A stretch of DNA of 64,000 nucleotides from Tenacibaculum jejuense (lineage in GTDB: Bacteria > Bacteroidota > Bacteroidia > Flavobacteriales > Flavobacteriaceae), in contig NZ_LT899436.1 in NCBI RefSeq assembly GCF_900198195.1, positions 3,563,001-3,627,000 on the forward strand, given 5' to 3'. Below the pieces are notes generated by a model, which was not told the DNA's origin, ran no database searches, and saw only the letters and a program-made list of their open reading frames with translations. Positions 27,527-35,368 of this stretch are shown piece after piece (the stretch's first letter is position 1; the number at the start of each line of letters is the position of its first letter). A program made the position numbers and the translations under genes.

Positions 27527-27725
27527 TTTTTTGTTTCTCTACACATCGCTACACCAAAAACAATTCATAACCCTATACAAAACAACACTTTAAACCAAAA
27601 AAACTTCTTTTATATTTTATAGTTTTATATTATTTCAGCTAGAATTCCATACACCTTTTTATAAAAAGCATACCCTTTTTTGCTTTTATAAACCCAAATA
27701 TCTTTTTCCTCTAAGTCCCAAATTC

Positions 27726-27733
27726 TACCTTTG
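27726..27733 (+). promoter_or_regulatory. -7 promoter element of the LRR protein gene
   Basis: TACCTTTG is an exact TAnnTTTG box, 38 bp before the ATG at 27772. The -33 element is not a clear match (TTTTT around 27703). Confidence 0.6.
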
Positions 27734-27771
27734 ATAAGACAAAAGAACTATGTAAATAATCCAAAAATTAG

Positions 27772-30700
27772 ATGAAAAAAAAATTACTTCTAGTTACTAT
27801 ATCGTTTATGATATACATTCCTTTTTTTGCACAATGCAATACTATTGTAAATATTCCTGACCAAAATTTTAAAAATGCTTTACTAAATCATTCTCCTATT
27901 ATAGATAGTAATAATGATGGAGAAATTCAGTGTTCTGAAGCAGAAAATTTAACTGGAAGAATGTCTATTTCAAATAAACGTATTTTAGATCTTACAGGAA
28001 TCGAAGCCTTTGTTAATATAACTTTATTAGACTGTACAGAAAACTCTATAACTTCTTTAAATACTTCAAAAAACACAAAATTAGAATATATATGGTGTCA
28101 TTTAAATAGTATAGAAACTATAGATATATCTCAAAACATTTCATTAAAAAGTCTAGAATGCTATAGTAACAAGATAACTTCTTTAGACGTCAGTAATAAC
28201 ATTAATCTTGAAGTATTATGGTGCTACGCTAACGAATTAAACACTTTAGATGTTAGCAAAAATATTAAATTAACAACTCTTGGTTGTGCTGATAATAACT
28301 TAACATCATTAGATCTTTCTTTTAACTCTGTACTAACACATATAGATTGTGCTAGAAATAGTCTTACAGCATTAGATATTTCTAATGGTAATAACAATAA
28401 TGTAAGTTCTTTCTCTTCTATTGAGAATACTGGATTATTTTGTGTACAAATAGACGCTAATTTTACAGTGCCAAATAATAATATTTGGAATAAAGACGTT
28501 AATACAAGTTATGGTTCAAATTGTAACTGTAATGTAACTTTACCTGATCAAAACTTTAAGAATGCATTATTAAATCATTCTCCTATTATTGACATCAACA
28601 ATGATGGTGAAATACAATGTTATGAAGCTGAAAATCTTACTGAAACTTTAAATATTGACAATAATTCTATAGCTGATTTATCTGGGATTGAAAGTTTTGT
28701 AAACATTACAAGACTTGAATGTGATGGTAACCAGTTACAAGCTTTAGATATGTCTCATAACACAAAATTAGAATATTTATCATGTTCTTATAATGAGTTA
28801 ATCGATATTGATATTTCTAAAAACCTACAATTAAAAAGTATATCATGCTCCTCAAATCAACTGAATAGTATTGATCTGACCAATAATACTTCTTTAATCA
28901 ATTTTCGTTGCTCTGATAATAACTTACAAAGTTTAGATGTATCTAATAATTTGAATTTAAATCAACTTACATTAAGTCGTAATGAATTAACAAGTATAGA
29001 TGTATCTAATAATCGTAGTTTAACATCCTTATCTTGTAATAGTAATAATCTTAATTTATTAGATGTTTCACAAAATGTAAATTTATCTTCTTTAGATTAT
29101 TCATTTAATAATTTACCTAATGTTGATTTAAGTCAAAATGTATGGTTATCATACCTAGACTGTTCTTCTAATGAAATTACAGCATTAGATTTAAGCAACA
29201 ATTCAAGACTTAATAGATTACAAATTAGAGGAAGTAACTTAACATCTTTAGACTTATCTACAAATACTTCTTTAGAAGAAGTATGGATTTCACATAGTCC
29301 TTTGTTATTCTCTATCAACTTAGCTAATGGATTTAATAACAGTTTAAATACAATTTGGCTAGAAACAGCTAATTCAAAATTAAATTGTATTCAAATAGAC
29401 AACGGTTTTACACCTCCAAATAATTGGCGAAAACCTGAAACAGCTTTTTACAGCAACGATTGTTCTTGTACGGTTGACATTCCTGATGCAAATTTCAAAA
29501 ATGCACTATTAAACAACAGTGATAAAATTGACTTAAACGAAGATAGTGAAATACAATGTACTGAAGTTTTGGCTTTTAGAGGCGTCCTATTAGATCTTAG
29601 TGATAAAGGCATCTCAGATTTGACTGGAATAGAAGCTTTTAAAGATATCCAAATATTAATATGTGATAATAATGATTTAACTTATTTAGATCTTTCTCAA
29701 AACACAAAACTATCTAATATACAATGCAATAACAATAAAATCACTTCTATAAATGTTACTAACAACAAAGATTTAGTCGTATTAAATTGTATTAATAATG
29801 AGCTATTAAATTTAGATGTTTCACAAAATACCGAATTGGCTTCTCTGAGCTGTCAAGAAAATAAACTAGAAAGCTTAGATGTGAGTAATAATAGCGAATT
29901 AGATATCCTATTTTGTAATGACAATCAACTTACAAGTATAGATGTAACTAACAATCCTAAACTCTTACTTTTTCAACCTTCAAACAATCCTATAGGTGAC
30001 TTAGATATTACTCAAAATCCTGCTCTTCTGCAAATAGGTTGCGTAAATAATTCTTTAACAGAGTTAAACGTAGCCAATAATCCTAATTTAAAAGTATTGA
30101 GTTGTGGAACAAATACACTAACCAATATAGATGTTTCTAACAATCCTAATTTAGAAGTTTTATGGTGTAGTAACAATTCTTTAAGCTCTATAGATGTAAC
30201 CAACAACCCTTTATTAAAGCAGTTATTTTTCAAGAGTAATACGCTAAGTACAATTGATATTTCAAATAACCCAAACTTAGAAAGATTAGGTTGTGGTGAT
30301 AATAATTTAACCAGTCTTGATTTATCTGACAAACTTAAATTAAATACTTTATTCTGTGATGGTAATAATTTAACTACACTAAATATAGGAAATGGCAATA
30401 ACAGTAATTTTATTGATATGAGAGCAAATAATAATCCTAATTTGCTTTGTATTCAGATAGATGAAAATTTCACAGTTCCTGGAACTTGGGCAAAAGATGC
30501 TACTGCAAGATATAGCAGTAATTGTAGAGCTACTGCTAGTGTAAACGATGAAACTATTTATAATTTTAACTTATACCCTAACCCGGTTAATAACATCTTA
30601 AACGTAAAGTTTGACGGAAAAGTTAAAAAAGTAGCCATCTACAACTTACAAGGAAAACAAGTAATGCATAGTTTTAAAAGTAAAGAAATAAATATCTCTA

Positions 30701-30777
30701 AGTTAAGTAATGGACTTTATGTAGTGGCTATAGAAACTGAAAAAGGTAAAGGCATAAAACGTTTTATAAAACAATAA
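27772..30777 (+). CDS. Leucine-rich-repeat surface protein of three tandem modules with T9SS sorting domain
   Basis: A 1001-aa exported protein (signal peptide about residues 1-21). It consists of three homologous modules beginning near residues 22, 253 and 563. Each opens with a capping segment NIPDQNFKNALLNHSPIID...NNDGEIQC, runs through 21-residue LRRs of the type LxCxxNxLxxLDVSxNxxLxx, and closes with CVQIDANFTVPNN...YGSNC. Residues from about 922 are a T9SS type A domain (FNLYPNPVNNILNVKF ... GLYVVAIETEKGKGIKRFIKQ). It should be secreted and probably held at the cell surface for adhesion or ligand binding. The gene has its own promoter and precedes a peptide gene by 80 bp. Confidence 0.92.
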   Translation: MKKKLLLVTISFMIYIPFFAQCNTIVNIPDQNFKNALLNHSPIIDSNNDGEIQCSEAENLTGRMSISNKRILDLTGIEAFVNITLLDCTENSITSLNTSKNTKLEYIWCHLNSIETIDISQNISLKSLECYSNKITSLDVSNNINLEVLWCYANELNTLDVSKNIKLTTLGCADNNLTSLDLSFNSVLTHIDCARNSLTALDISNGNNNNVSSFSSIENTGLFCVQIDANFTVPNNNIWNKDVNTSYGSNCNCNVTLPDQNFKNALLNHSPIIDINNDGEIQCYEAENLTETLNIDNNSIADLSGIESFVNITRLECDGNQLQALDMSHNTKLEYLSCSYNELIDIDISKNLQLKSISCSSNQLNSIDLTNNTSLINFRCSDNNLQSLDVSNNLNLNQLTLSRNELTSIDVSNNRSLTSLSCNSNNLNLLDVSQNVNLSSLDYSFNNLPNVDLSQNVWLSYLDCSSNEITALDLSNNSRLNRLQIRGSNLTSLDLSTNTSLEEVWISHSPLLFSINLANGFNNSLNTIWLETANSKLNCIQIDNGFTPPNNWRKPETAFYSNDCSCTVDIPDANFKNALLNNSDKIDLNEDSEIQCTEVLAFRGVLLDLSDKGISDLTGIEAFKDIQILICDNNDLTYLDLSQNTKLSNIQCNNNKITSINVTNNKDLVVLNCINNELLNLDVSQNTELASLSCQENKLESLDVSNNSELDILFCNDNQLTSIDVTNNPKLLLFQPSNNPIGDLDITQNPALLQIGCVNNSLTELNVANNPNLKVLSCGTNTLTNIDVSNNPNLEVLWCSNNSLSSIDVTNNPLLKQLFFKSNTLSTIDISNNPNLERLGCGDNNLTSLDLSDKLKLNTLFCDGNNLTTLNIGNGNNSNFIDMRANNNPNLLCIQIDENFTVPGTWAKDATARYSSNCRATASVNDETIYNFNLYPNPVNNILNVKFDGKVKKVAIYNLQGKQVMHSFKSKEINISKLSNGLYVVAIETEKGKGIKRFIKQ

Positions 30778-30795
30778 AGAAATTTTCGCGACAAT

Positions 30796-30830
30796 AGACA
30801 TACACCTTGAATGTCTTAAAATGATCAAGG
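30796..30830 (+). ncRNA. Possible H-type RNA pseudoknot in leader of the GG-leader peptide gene
   Basis: Two perfect 6-bp helices interlock: AGACAT (30796-30801) with ATGTCT (30811-30816), and CCTTGA (30805-30810) with TCAAGG (30825-30830). Loops are 3, 0 and 8 nt, the geometry of a compact H-type pseudoknot. It lies 28 nt before the ATG of the 83-aa peptide. Formation is predicted only from pairing. Confidence 0.35.
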
Positions 30831-30857
30831 AAAATAAACTTAAAAATTCAAAATATT

Positions 30858-31109
30858 ATGAAAAAATCAATCTTAAATCTAGGAAAATCTTTAAACAAAA
30901 CTGAGCAACAAAATATTAATGGAGGTTTTGGACCTTTCGGACCTTCTGTTTGTGCTTCTAGTTCAAACTACATCCTTGAAGGAGGAGAAATCATAATTAA
31001 CGGAGTAAGAACTAACGACTGTTCATTTCCATCTAGAGCATCTAAAGGAGCCTTTCCAGGATCTAGATGTTACGGAGGTGTTATCAACGGAGTTTGTACT
31101 GTAGGATAA
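30858..31109 (+). CDS. Small secreted peptide with double-glycine leader, bacteriocin/RiPP-like
   Basis: An 83-aa precursor. Residues 1-23 (MKKSILNLGKSLNKTEQQ then NINGG) match the double-glycine leader seen in Bacteroidota bacteriocin-like and RiPP precursors: a short amphipathic helix ending in I-N-G-G, normally cut by the peptidase domain of a PCAT/HlyB-type ABC exporter. The 60-residue core is rich in Gly, Ser and Asn and has Cys at 32, 55, 71 and 80, which could form two disulfides or carry modifications. No exporter, immunity or modification gene is adjacent, so export in trans is needed. A strong terminator follows. Confidence 0.8.
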   Translation: MKKSILNLGKSLNKTEQQNINGGFGPFGPSVCASSSNYILEGGEIIINGVRTNDCSFPSRASKGAFPGSRCYGGVINGVCTVG

Positions 31110-31139
31110 CGTACTTAATCTAACAAAGATTAAAATAAA

Positions 31140-31167
31140 AAGAGCGTCTATTTTTATAGACGCTCTT
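31140..31167. terminator. Bidirectional terminator after the peptide gene
   Basis: Perfect 12-bp stem (31140-31151 with 31156-31167) with TTTT loop, relatively GC-rich, shared by the peptide gene and the convergent lipoprotein gene. Confidence 0.88.
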
Positions 31168-31190
31168 CATTTATATTGAATAATTTTTTT

Positions 31191-32258
31191 TTACCTTCTT
31201 TTTAAAACAAGTTCTATAGTTCCAATAAAATCATCTCCAAACTCTAATACCAATCTATCGGAAGTCACTTCTTTTACAAACAAACCATCAATTGCAACAT
31301 TTCCAAAATTATACGTTTCAGAATTTCCTCCATCTATAAAATCAGTAAAACTAAAGAAAACAACCGTTAACGAATTATCGTCTTCATTGTAAGCCCAATT
31401 ACCATCAGCTCTATATTCTTCTTTTACTACTTCATCAAAGACAGGAGTACAAGTTTCTTTTGTACTACTGTAATCTAAAGTAGCATATTCTCCTTTTAAA
31501 GATTCAAAGAAACTTCCGTCTTGATTGAAACTGATGTAACCTAACGATTGCGTTAAAGCATCGAAGTCTACAGAAACCGAACTTCCGTTGTCACATATAA
31601 CCATTTCCACATCTGCATCTTCATCATCTTCAGGAACCCATTCTCCAACAATAGATGCATTTCCACCCCAAGCTTCAATAGTTACACAAACCGTTTCGAT
31701 TCTACTGATGTTATTATTACTGTCATAAATGCATATATCATAGCAAAATTCACCAGCTGGAACAGAGTTTTGTAAATCAACATTAATTGTTGTTTCTTCT
31801 TGCATACGCGAAGAAATTCTATGATCTGATTTTTTAAAGATACTTTTAAAATTAGAAGTTCCATCTACCATTCTGCTAGAAAATGACGAAGCTGGAATAT
31901 CAAAAAATGTATTTGTTGGATTTCCTTCACTATCCTTAAACTGTACATAAGCTCCCGCTACATTATCTGTAGAAGTAAACTTAATATCAAAACCTGAACC
32001 TTGAAAACCTGTTTTCAAATCTGAATTAATTTGAAAATCGAGATCACTATTTGGAGCTGGAGGTGTACCTGACTCTTTTGTAGCTCCACTAATAACAATA
32101 CCGTTTTCTATTGTAGAAACAGGAGTTTTATTATCCTCTAATGCGTTCTGTTGTTCTGCTACTTCCTCGTTTCCTGCTGTTGGTGAAGAATCACTACTAC
32201 ATGAGGTAAAATAAACACTAACACATAAAGCTAGTGCTAAAAAACATAGTTTTTTCAT
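31191..32258 (-). CDS. Lipoprotein of unknown function
   Basis: A 355-aa lipoprotein (lipobox YFTSC, C20) with a low-complexity acidic linker to about residue 60. A middle beta-rich region (ISGATKESGTPPAPNSDLDF ... VPAGEFCYDICIYDSNNNIS) follows, with paired cysteines. The C-terminal half begins IVGEWVPEDDEDADVEMVI and continues GYISFNQDGSFFESLKGEY, resembling the lipocalin-like domains common in Bacteroidota lipoproteins. I do not recognise a specific function. It is transcribed alone toward the shared terminator. Confidence 0.82.
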   Translation of the reverse strand: MKKLCFLALALCVSVYFTSCSSDSSPTAGNEEVAEQQNALEDNKTPVSTIENGIVISGATKESGTPPAPNSDLDFQINSDLKTGFQGSGFDIKFTSTDNVAGAYVQFKDSEGNPTNTFFDIPASSFSSRMVDGTSNFKSIFKKSDHRISSRMQEETTINVDLQNSVPAGEFCYDICIYDSNNNISRIETVCVTIEAWGGNASIVGEWVPEDDEDADVEMVICDNGSSVSVDFDALTQSLGYISFNQDGSFFESLKGEYATLDYSSTKETCTPVFDEVVKEEYRADGNWAYNEDDNSLTVVFFSFTDFIDGGNSETYNFGNVAIDGLFVKEVTSDRLVLEFGDDFIGTIELVLKRR

Positions 32259-32497: not shown

Positions 32498-35368
32498 ATG
32501 AAAACTGAATATGATATTATCATTATTGGTGGTGGTGCCATGGGATTAGCAACAGCTGCCGAACTTGCTAAGACAAAGAAAAATGTTCTGGTACTCGAAC
32601 AATTTTCTTTTTTTAATGACAAGGGAAGCTCTGCAGGATTATCGAGGCAATTTAGAGTTCAGTATGCTCAAAAATATATGGCTCAACTTGCTTTGGATAC
32701 TATTCCATATTGGGATGAACTTCAAAAAACAACCAAAGATACACTGATTGAAAAAGTAGGTTCATTATGGTTTGGAGACCCAAACATAAGCTCACAAGAA
32801 GGAGGAATTAAAGCTGCAATGGAAGTAATGGATGAATTAAACATTCCATACACTAAATTAAAAGCTAAAGAAATCGAAAAAGATTTTCCTTTCAAAAAAT
32901 TACCAAAAGACTATTATGGTTTTTTTCAGGACCAGGGAGGGATTATTGACTTGAAAGCTACATTGAAAGCGTTATTTAATATCGCTGATAAAGCAAAAAA
33001 TATCGATTTACTTGAGTTTACAAAAGTTACCAATATTGAATCTTTAAATACTGGAATTATAACAGTATCAACTTCTGAAAACACGTATTCTACAGAAAAA
33101 TTAGTGATTACTCCTGGTGCTTACATTAATGATATCTTAAAACACTTCGGCCTTTCAGTTAATGTAGATATTTGGGAAATGTCTTCAGCATATTACAAAA
33201 AAACAGAAGACATTAAATTACCAACTTGGTTTGTTTTTCAAGAACCTCAAAATACAAGTCTATTTTATGGATTTCCTGAAGAAAATTGGGCAAATCCTGG
33301 ATACATTAGAGTTGCACCTGATATTCCTGATCAAATTATTAAAGATCCATCAGAAAGGTCAGGAATTCCAAACGAAAAGAGTTTACAACTAAACTCTAAT
33401 TGGGTTAAAAACCACATGAAAGGTCTAAGTGACACACCTGAATTTACTTCTACTTGTTTAATAACACTAAACAATAACAATAAAGAATTAATGCTAGATA
33501 CATTACCTAATTGGGTTCATAATCATAAAAATATTGTTGTATATACTGGTGGGTGGGCTGCTAAATTTATTCCTCTTTTAGGAAAAATCCTGTCTGATAT
33601 CGCCTTAAAGGGTAAAACGAAATTTGACATTTCTCCATTTAAAATTCAATGGCCTGTAGTTCGTGGTGAAGTAAGTAATAAGTTTATTACTGAAGAAGTT
33701 AAACGATTACAGTTAGATGTTGCTATAATAGGAGCTGGTGCATCTGGTTTATATTCTGGATATCGTCTTTTAAACGGAACTAATAAGAAAGGAAAAAAAC
33801 TCGATCTTGATGTTGCTATTTTTGAAATGAGTGATCGTATTGGAGGAAGATTAGAATCTATTAAATTACCAGGAATGAATGTTGTTGGTGAACTTGGGGG
33901 TATGAGATATATGACTGAACAAAAAATTGTAACTGCTTTAATTGAAGATGTTTTCTCAACTCAATATGGACTGAATCCTATAGATTTCCCTATGGGAGAT
34001 GCCAATCATCACTTATATTATTTGAGAAAACAAAGATTTTTTGCGAATAGGTTTGATCAAGCAAAAATAACTGGTGAAAACTTTAAAACTCGATACTTTG
34101 TTGAAGAACGTTTTGAAGGAAAAAGTTCAGATGATATTTTCACAGAAATTATTAGTGAAGTATTGCTAGCAGATGGATACTCTCTTAAACAAATTCAAGA
34201 AAATCCTAATCCGAGAGAAGAATGGAATAGAGTAAAGAAAGAACTTACATATAGATTTGAAGGACCCTATAACGGACTAAAAGTATATGAAATTGGATTT
34301 TGGAACTTACTAAAAGATAGATCATCGCAAGAATGTTATGAATTTTTAGCTCAGGCTGGCGGTTACTATTCTAATACTATAAACTGGAATGCAGCTGAAG
34401 CTTTTCCTTATATGGTGGGTGATTTTGCTAGTGATGCAGTAAAATATAAAACTATTGATGGCGGTTACGATCAAATTCTAACTTGTTTAGGAGATGATTT
34501 TATTCAAAAAGGAGGTAGTATTTACACAAAAAACAAGCTTAAAACATTTAAGAAAAACCCTAAAAAATCAAGTAAGTATAAATATATATTAAAATTCTAT
34601 AACTTAGAAAAAGAAGAATATTGGGAAGTTGAAGCTAAGGATATAATTCTAGGAATGCCTAAGCGATCTTTAGAATTATTAGATCAAGACAACTTCTTTT
34701 TCAATGCTGAAAAACAACATAAACTCCACAATAATTTAAATTCAGTTATACCAGAACCTTCAGTTAAAATCTTGTTAGGATTTGAAGAACCTTGGTGGAA
34801 AAAAGATTTAGGAGCAATGGCTGGTGAATCTATCACCGACTTGCCCATGAGGCAGTGTTATTATTTTGGTGTAGATCCTAAAAATTCACACTCTCTATTT
34901 TTAGCAAGTTACAATGATATGCGAACTGTTAGCTTTTGGCAAGCATTAGAAGAAGGAGAAAAATTTCAAACTAGAGAAACTAAATTAGTTAGAGCTAAAA
35001 ATACCATTTATCCTAATTATGAACATGCGAGTAAAGTTATGGTTGATGAAGTTATGAGTCAAGTAGAAGAATTACACGGACCAAATATTAATGTACCTGC
35101 ACCTTATACTTCTGCTTACAAAGATTGGACTAAAGATCCTTATGGTGGTGGTTACCACGCTTGGAAAAATAGTTATAAAGTTTGGGAAGTAATGCCATAT
35201 ATAAGACAACCAAAGCAAGAAGAGCGTATTTTTATTACTGGTGAAGCCTACTCTGATCAACAAGGATGGGTTGAAGGAGCATTTTGTGTTACTGAACATA
35301 TTATGAGAGAACAATATGAACTCGAATGTCCTGAATGGTTAGATAAAGACTACTATTTAGGTTGGTAA
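32498..35368 (+). CDS. Fusion of a DAO-type amine oxidase and a flavin L-amino acid oxidase
   Basis: A 956-aa protein with two complete flavoenzyme halves. Residues 1 to about 385 are a DAO-family oxidase like sarcosine or N-methyltryptophan oxidase: Rossmann motif G11-GGAMG, SRQFRVQYAQKYM, and C320 in STCLITLNNN at the place where that family links FAD covalently. Residues about 405-956 are a flavin amine oxidase with its own Rossmann motif G412-AGASG, FEMSDRIGGR, GELGGMRYM and a terminal FAD motif GEAYSDQQGWVEGA. The second half resembles L-lysine or L-phenylalanine oxidases. No signal peptide is seen. Expected products are an imine or oxo acid and H2O2. No linked pathway gene is visible except a tiny ORF downstream. 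Confidence 0.9.
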   Translation: MKTEYDIIIIGGGAMGLATAAELAKTKKNVLVLEQFSFFNDKGSSAGLSRQFRVQYAQKYMAQLALDTIPYWDELQKTTKDTLIEKVGSLWFGDPNISSQEGGIKAAMEVMDELNIPYTKLKAKEIEKDFPFKKLPKDYYGFFQDQGGIIDLKATLKALFNIADKAKNIDLLEFTKVTNIESLNTGIITVSTSENTYSTEKLVITPGAYINDILKHFGLSVNVDIWEMSSAYYKKTEDIKLPTWFVFQEPQNTSLFYGFPEENWANPGYIRVAPDIPDQIIKDPSERSGIPNEKSLQLNSNWVKNHMKGLSDTPEFTSTCLITLNNNNKELMLDTLPNWVHNHKNIVVYTGGWAAKFIPLLGKILSDIALKGKTKFDISPFKIQWPVVRGEVSNKFITEEVKRLQLDVAIIGAGASGLYSGYRLLNGTNKKGKKLDLDVAIFEMSDRIGGRLESIKLPGMNVVGELGGMRYMTEQKIVTALIEDVFSTQYGLNPIDFPMGDANHHLYYLRKQRFFANRFDQAKITGENFKTRYFVEERFEGKSSDDIFTEIISEVLLADGYSLKQIQENPNPREEWNRVKKELTYRFEGPYNGLKVYEIGFWNLLKDRSSQECYEFLAQAGGYYSNTINWNAAEAFPYMVGDFASDAVKYKTIDGGYDQILTCLGDDFIQKGGSIYTKNKLKTFKKNPKKSSKYKYILKFYNLEKEEYWEVEAKDIILGMPKRSLELLDQDNFFFNAEKQHKLHNNLNSVIPEPSVKILLGFEEPWWKKDLGAMAGESITDLPMRQCYYFGVDPKNSHSLFLASYNDMRTVSFWQALEEGEKFQTRETKLVRAKNTIYPNYEHASKVMVDEVMSQVEELHGPNINVPAPYTSAYKDWTKDPYGGGYHAWKNSYKVWEVMPYIRQPKQEERIFITGEAYSDQQGWVEGAFCVTEHIMREQYELECPEWLDKDYYLGW

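Follow-up and report, generated by a model that had tools for sequence, protein, structure and literature searches.

A pseudoknot-headed gene for a probable exported, disulfide-bonded peptide in Tenacibaculum jejuense

A small gene at positions 30858–31109 of a 64,000-nucleotide stretch of the Tenacibaculum jejuense genome (NZ_LT899436.1, positions 3,563,001–3,627,000; hereafter, the window) encodes an 83-residue protein that, judging from its sequence, is probably the precursor of a secreted, disulfide-bonded peptide that is clipped and exported. The gene is headed by an H-type RNA pseudoknot, a structure shown by covariation among related elements. Taken as a whole, an exported, disulfide-bonded substrate of a peptidase-containing ATP-binding cassette transporter (PCAT), encoded by a pseudoknot-headed gene, is an explanation that we consider highly probable. 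Flavobacteriaceae appear to encode uncharacterised disulfide-rich peptides by the hundred, with one type of leader and maturation machine in common.

The precursor and its relatives

The open reading frame (ORF) features a double-glycine leader ending in I20 N21 G22 G23 and cysteines at residues 32, 55, 71 and 80. The ORF, its length, the leader and the four Cys positions had been given in a preliminary description made from the DNA letters, and all were confirmed by re-reading. The gene and the element ahead of it are organized as follows.

30778..30795, + strand: conserved TCGCGA-box block directly 5' of the pseudoknot, possibly a weak hairpin, defined by the TCGCGA count across contexts
30796..30830, + strand: H-type RNA pseudoknot in the 5' leader of the gene, defined by covariation and genome-wide matches
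30796..30801 paired with 30811..30816, + strand: stem 1 (S1) of the pseudoknot
30802..30804 and 30817..30824, + strand: loops 1 (L1) and 3 (L3)
30805..30810 paired with 30825..30830, + strand: stem 2 (S2)
30858..30926, + strand: double-glycine leader, 23 codons, a length found in 497 of the 515 precursors described below
30927..31106, + strand: 60-residue core with four Cys, followed by the stop codon (31107–31109)

A database search with the 83-residue peptide (P0001) retrieved 11 proteins at E ≤ 0.001, the query included, and five of the other ten resemble it in both leader and core. Used as a single sequence, P0001 has 24 matches in its own genome, in which the window is part of a single 4.61-Mb contig (C1). 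Among 59 genomes, matches were found in 10 (its own included), all of the same genus. An alignment of 29 precursors from the same genome increased the number of genome matches to 57 at E ≤ 1, and the 54 that were read are, without exception, ORFs with a Cys-bearing core and a leader of the same type, for which the preliminary description had proposed to search. These 54 precursors map to 31 places: 13 lie in a first exporter cluster and another at a distance of about 15 kb from this cluster; one is next to a second exporter, and 39 are elsewhere in the genome. Solo position is normal in this genome, where 39 of 54 precursors are far from either exporter; the peptide, previously called solo, is alone locally but is one of 54 genome-wide.

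Running a leader model over fetched loci, which were chosen for carrying such genes and come in large part from Tenacibaculum and Aquimarina, yielded 515 distinct precursors. Column entropy ranges from 0 to 3.1 bits in the leader and from 3.8 to 4.1 bits in the first 17 core positions, bearing out the proposal that the leader is conserved among relatives while the core varies. The leader ends in GG and has a spaced hydrophobic pattern common to the siblings, the hallmark of PCAT peptides. Cores contain 2 (7 precursors), 4 (227), 5 (20), 6 (230), 7 (1) or 8 (30) cysteines. The number is therefore even in 494 of 515 cores, compared with 257.5 on average and 288 at most in 200 rounds of shuffling. 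Grouping the cores by BLAST gave 157 families, 86 of them singletons; Cys numbers are even in 150 of the families (by majority) and in 80 of the singletons. Likewise, they are even in 48 of the 54 precursors read in the T. jejuense genome, one of which was counted by eye.

The core family of the window peptide comprises 26 members (22 from the loci and four database proteins), some of them nearly identical, and is found in both Tenacibaculum and Aquimarina. The four cysteines are invariant in all 26. A further Cys pair, at the CxC and CC positions, is either complete (16 members) or missing altogether (10 members), and two of the latter carry another extra pair. The YGNGVXC motif of class IIa pediocin-like bacteriocins, as named in PMC6671954, is absent from the core. 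P0001 scores 14.4 bits against TIGR03949 (class IIb lactobin A/cerein 7B), below the curated cut-off of 21.5, and NF047798, a Chryseobacterium bacteriocin-like leader family, matches just 3 of the 29 precursors (best E 0.065). The double-glycine leader resembles those of both families, though both matches are weak.

An H-type pseudoknot RNA heads the gene

Of 514 precursor genes, 218 (the window gene among them) have a two-stem pseudoknot upstream, compared with 5 of 514 shuffled sequences. S1 and S2 are 6 bp each, L1 is mostly 3 nt and L3 mostly 8 or 9 nt long, and S1 mostly starts 58–66 nt ahead of the ATG (62 nt in the window gene). Anchoring on S1 and L3 alone yielded 171 distinct elements, 159 of which feature full S2 pairing. 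Where the S2 arm is a variant one (46 elements), it pairs fully with its own partner in 36 cases, whereas swapped partners do so in 12.8 cases on average and 18 at most. Covariation of S2 was analysed in a deliberately enriched alignment of 70 elements (each of the 46 variants plus 24 of the 125 that carry the common arm), in which 95.0% of cells pair. Two-sided changes occur in all six S2 pairs and in 80 cells, compared with 25.5 after shuffling; none of 500 shuffles reached 80, although the sequences are related by descent and p-values are indicative.

The cells that deviate from Watson-Crick pairing bear on the nature of the molecule. In S2 they are G-U in 50 cases, A-C in 3 and other in 11, and in those two pairs of S1 that were not part of the anchor they are G-U in 37, A-C in 1 and other in 8; this count left out one of the 171 elements, which has fewer than four Watson-Crick pairs. 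The excess of G-U over A-C indicates that the sense-strand RNA is the pairing molecule, as RNA pairing requires. The TCGCGA box 5' of the pseudoknot occurs in 121 of 169 distinct contexts, and the pair test for a hairpin gave a mixed result. An A-rich tract accompanies this box both in the window (30778–30795) and ahead of other elements. In a scan of 30700–31200 at E ≤ 5, no Rfam covariance model matched over the window element; none covered the elements of five loci at E ≤ 1, and a scan of five loci other than the window at E ≤ 0.1 gave no match whatever.

The distribution of the elements fits the notion that the pseudoknot heads precursor units. Among genes preceded by another precursor within 600 nt, the gap is shorter than 60 nt in 0 of 90 element-bearing and 202 of 277 element-free genes, a rule that is partly a result of the length of the element itself; the remaining 75 element-free genes have a longer gap yet no element. 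The RNA search model (R1) includes S2 as pairs, so that S2 pairing in its matches leans toward the structure. In the T. jejuense genome, where 150 of 8162 first-look candidates were scored, the model has 16 matches. Fifteen are directly ahead of precursors, with 13–18 nt between the end of the model and the start codon. The remaining match (C1:496139–496184; L004 9140–9185, minus strand) is located between the genes of a disulfide-enzyme fusion and a PCAT, is not followed by a precursor ORF, and may be a relic or a control element of the exporter. In loci L085 and L086, a precursor with such a pseudoknot element is found behind the fusion gene.

Among the 59 genomes, the pseudoknot is present in exactly the 10 that carry the peptides, some of which were a source of elements for the model. 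It was also detected in 18 of 199 Flavobacteriaceae genomes sampled across the family, two of them within the genus. In the 16 others, a leader-like ORF, judged by eye, follows 41 of 44 matches (36 of 39 without G252, a genome that possibly overlaps the L100 record used for the model); one of the 41 ORFs is short and lacks Cys, and a few have a variant of the GG motif. The outside-genus elements feature 13 G-U and one A-C pairs. In 32 of 39 elements, after removal of four duplicates and three elements with another loop length, 45 cells are changed on both sides, compared with 14.4. Leaders behind these pseudoknots are often unlike the Tenacibaculum type. For instance, some pseudoknot-headed precursors of other genera (L202, L205 and L208) have an LQRNxLKTIxG-type leader, which indicates that the pseudoknot RNA crosses leader classes.

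Exporters and the disulfide enzyme

According to the preliminary description, the peptide would be exported by a transporter encoded elsewhere in the genome, a reading supported by the conserved leader and by the exporters identified. A search of the contig revealed three C39 matches. Two correspond to active-looking, full exporters, PCAT 1 at ~494–496 kb and PCAT 2 at ~4224–4226 kb, both of which contain C39, ABC membrane and ATPase domains. PCAT 1 aligns with the solved bacteriocin exporter 4ry2 across residues 1–720, and inspection by eye showed the C39 catalytic residues Q, C, H and D to be present in the exporter. The PCAT 1 cluster (C1:487–498 kb) also includes HlyD, a VKOR-DsbA fusion and the 13 precursors mentioned above; beside the cluster, adjoining the fusion gene, is the gene of a LuxR-type regulator, in which PAS was matched below cut-off. 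PCAT 1 is, on these sequence features, the likely exporter of the window peptide, although PCAT 2 could conceivably serve it instead. The PCAT 2-HlyD pair (L005, C1:4215000–4234000) has a single nearby precursor (C1:4227686–4227865), on the other strand and with a divergent leader, and PCAT 2 may serve a divergent subset of precursors.

The third, weak C39 match is the N-terminus of the VKOR-DsbA fusion, a membrane disulfide enzyme, the modelled structure of which matches C39, VKOR and ScsC/DsbA structures. In an alignment of 38 fusion rows (one a longer reading of the reference), six cysteines are invariant: a loop pair, a CxxC in the VKOR part and a CxxC in the DsbA-like part. In contrast, 20 of the 38 rows lack Cys altogether in the C39-like part. 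This domain, devoid of the catalytic Cys, probably recognises the same leader as the PCAT. Of 36 same-genus genomes, 10 carry the peptides, and all nine with a VKOR match above cut-off are among them; the remaining one, G012, has an assembly completeness of 67%. C39 is less specific, being found in 18 of the 36, including all 10 with peptides. Core-family members are located directly behind the fusion gene in L060 and L064, alongside PCAT, HlyD and fusion genes in L063, L085 and L097, and with HlyD in L043/L061, where the contig ends. Within the sequence examined, which in L052 spans only 0.1 kb downstream of the gene, no exporter part was found near the members in other loci, which include the window, L052, L055 and L102. 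Even Cys numbers are expected under disulfide pairing and not under thioether linkage, and together with the fusion in the exporter cluster they make disulfides the best-supported modification.

The locus, alternatives and function

The window gene starts 80 nt behind a leucine-rich repeat (LRR) gene, and two further features lie around it.

27772..30777, + strand: LRR protein with a type IX secretion system sorting domain, a neighbour only, missing at the same locus in L052 and L055
31139..31168, no strand assigned: bidirectional intrinsic-terminator-like stem-loop 3' of the gene (two in 30600–31300, compared with 0.1 expected from shuffles)

Pfam scanning of nine neighbours identified a Radical SAM/UPF0004 protein, presumably of the tRNA methylthiotransferase type, DUF6438, a hydrolase, a lytic transglycosylase, the LRR protein, a lipoprotein without Pfam match (encoded downstream of the peptide gene on the opposite strand), a DAO-amine oxidase fusion, GTP cyclohydrolase I and HisRS. 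In the DAO-amine oxidase fusion (32498–35368), a DAO-type FAD oxidoreductase and a flavin amine oxidase are joined in a 956-residue protein. None of the nine is an exporter and no C39 match occurs anywhere in the window; the LRR neighbour and the lack of a nearby exporter had been described correctly. In two Tenacibaculum relatives (L052 and L055), the peptide gene is present at the same locus without the LRR gene, an absence noted for positions 27538–30772 of the window. Flanking proteins are at least 80% identical to those of the window in 18 of 23 comparisons (range 43–99%), while the cores are ~45% identical. The sequences become homologous again at the LRR stop codon or slightly before it, adjoining the conserved block 5' of the pseudoknot, indicating that the LRR gene was inserted or lost at this locus; since both relatives keep the peptide without it, the LRR neighbour is incidental.

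That the ORF is spurious or decayed behind the LRR gene, as its small size and solo position alone might suggest, has a negligible probability: the homologues in the two relatives lack the LRR gene, the cysteines are invariant, and nonsynonymous divergence in the leader (dN 0.04–0.10) is far below synonymous divergence (dS 0.38–1.29). The upstream element might instead be promoter or operator DNA, with a sigma-70-like TAGACA-N16-TAAAAT and arms serving as protein half-sites. A promoter-like match at 30795–30822 and the conserved TCGCGA box speak for this improbable reading, but such matches are at shuffled expectation in the region (3 vs 2.7) and the S2 arms covary in all six pairs; moreover, double-stranded DNA predicts about equal numbers of G-T and A-C mismatches, against the 50 to 3 and 37 to 1 observed. 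Cysteines joined to dehydrated Ser/Thr by LanB/LanC would give a thioether product. LanC and LanB matches on opposite strands at C1:722846–726508 form a separate lanthipeptide-type locus, and a leader model for class I lanthipeptides has weak matches in 6 of the 29 precursors (best E 0.043). However, none of the 57 genome matches lies at 722–727 kb, which is far from the window gene too, the exporter cluster carries the VKOR-DsbA fusion instead of LanB/C, and thioether chemistry does not need the even Cys numbers found in 494 of 515 cores. We regard thioether linkage as very improbable.

A disulfide-bonded peptide could also be an exported recognition or quorum signal, with each core carrying its own message and the LuxR-type regulator reading the state. 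The adjacency of this regulator to the fusion gene, the lack of a recognised immunity gene beside the peptide gene and the occurrence of the core family in both Tenacibaculum and Aquimarina are in favour of a signal, which we consider unlikely though worth retaining. Tens of different disulfide-rich cores per genome are observed, and we know of no signalling system that uses so many. Bacteroidetocin producers also lack immunity proteins, yet their peptides kill (PMC6671954).

Several observations weigh against an exported, disulfide-bonded PCAT peptide with a pseudoknot-headed gene. Cys numbers are odd in 6 of 54 precursors of the genome and in 21 of 515 cores, and the LanB/LanC locus makes an alternative Cys chemistry available in principle. 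The predicted core structure is of modest confidence (predicted local distance difference test 74.8, predicted TM-score 0.53) and has no known fold. The pseudoknot is found ahead of just 15 of the 54 precursors; many of those without it occupy later positions in a unit, but it is missing from some solo genes too. The C39-like part has one Cys in 18 of 38 fusion rows, but this residue (reference position 75) lies away from the N-terminal region in which a catalytic Cys would be expected. Three same-genus genomes have VKOR matches below cut-off and no peptides, two genomes from other families (G039 and G052) exceed the VKOR cut-off with neither P0001 nor RNA-model matches, and eight same-genus genomes have C39 matches without these peptides. 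No immunity gene was recognised near the peptide gene, though no dedicated search was made, such genes having no common signature; the absence of an adjacent one is unusual for classical class II bacteriocins.

Parts of this organization are known from elsewhere. Conserved leaders followed by many hypervariable cores are also typical of prochlorosins and conotoxins; unlike the peptides described here, prochlorosins are lanthionine products, and conotoxins are eukaryotic and exported by signal peptides. Riboswitches of the preQ1-I type likewise feature a compact H-type pseudoknot with an A-rich third loop upstream of the start codon. In contrast to such elements, the pseudoknots reported here precede genes for exported-peptide precursors and have no Rfam match.

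The closest comparison is with bacteroidetocins (class IIf), on the layout described in PMC6671954. Bacteroidetocins are likewise double-glycine peptides of Bacteroidota with four Cys and inferred disulfides, with a thiol oxidoreductase and a C39 ABC exporter as partners and no recognised immunity protein (PMC6671954). They differ in leader length (15–16 residues vs 23) and number (36 peptides in 35 regions vs 54 read in one genome, mostly unlinked), the oxidoreductase of T. jejuense is, unlike theirs, a C39-like-VKOR-DsbA fusion, and no pseudoknot is mentioned in the passages considered (PMC6671954). None of the linked genes by which bacteroidetocins are recognised (transmembrane protein, thiol oxidoreductase and C39 exporter) lies beside the window gene. 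Oxidoreductase and exporter are linked to its siblings at C1:487–498 kb, where a separate transmembrane protein was not systematically sought. Double-glycine precursors with PCATs have been reported in Bacteroidales (PMC10352776), and the passages considered from a survey of flavobacterial clusters (PMC7440613) make no mention of this peptide set.

For the exported, disulfide-bonded peptide, we propose the following route. Transcription would give a unit headed by the pseudoknot, from which the precursor is translated. PCAT 1, with HlyD, would bind the leader and cut after G23, as leader and exporter suggest, and the 60-residue core would be moved across the inner membrane via HlyD and a putative outer-membrane channel. 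The C39-like-VKOR-DsbA fusion would form two disulfides, as suggested by Cys parity, by the gain and loss of Cys in pairs and by the linkage of the enzyme. The pseudoknot would act in cis as a control or stability element through which some of the scattered genes, among them this one, and perhaps also the exporter cluster are regulated together. Once mature, the peptides would have an extracellular role, for which we favour, with some reserve, a narrow-spectrum bacteriocin activity of the bacteroidetocin kind, with signalling as the principal alternative. There is an even chance that the pseudoknot represents a new class of cis-regulatory RNA, a metabolite, protein or enzyme switch for unlinked peptides and their exporter, and the dead-C39 fusion a leader-reading disulfide enzyme.

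The pseudoknot RNA has the look of a not yet catalogued element that controls peptides serving as weapons or signals. It makes the co-regulation of unlinked peptide genes directly testable, and it is a handle for finding such peptides in new genomes, even when the leader differs. The peptides themselves appear to form a natural library of disulfide-rich molecules that, in its layout, resembles those of venom peptides or prochlorosins. Should the dead C39 domain indeed guide disulfide formation, the system would be a programmable disulfide-peptide factory.
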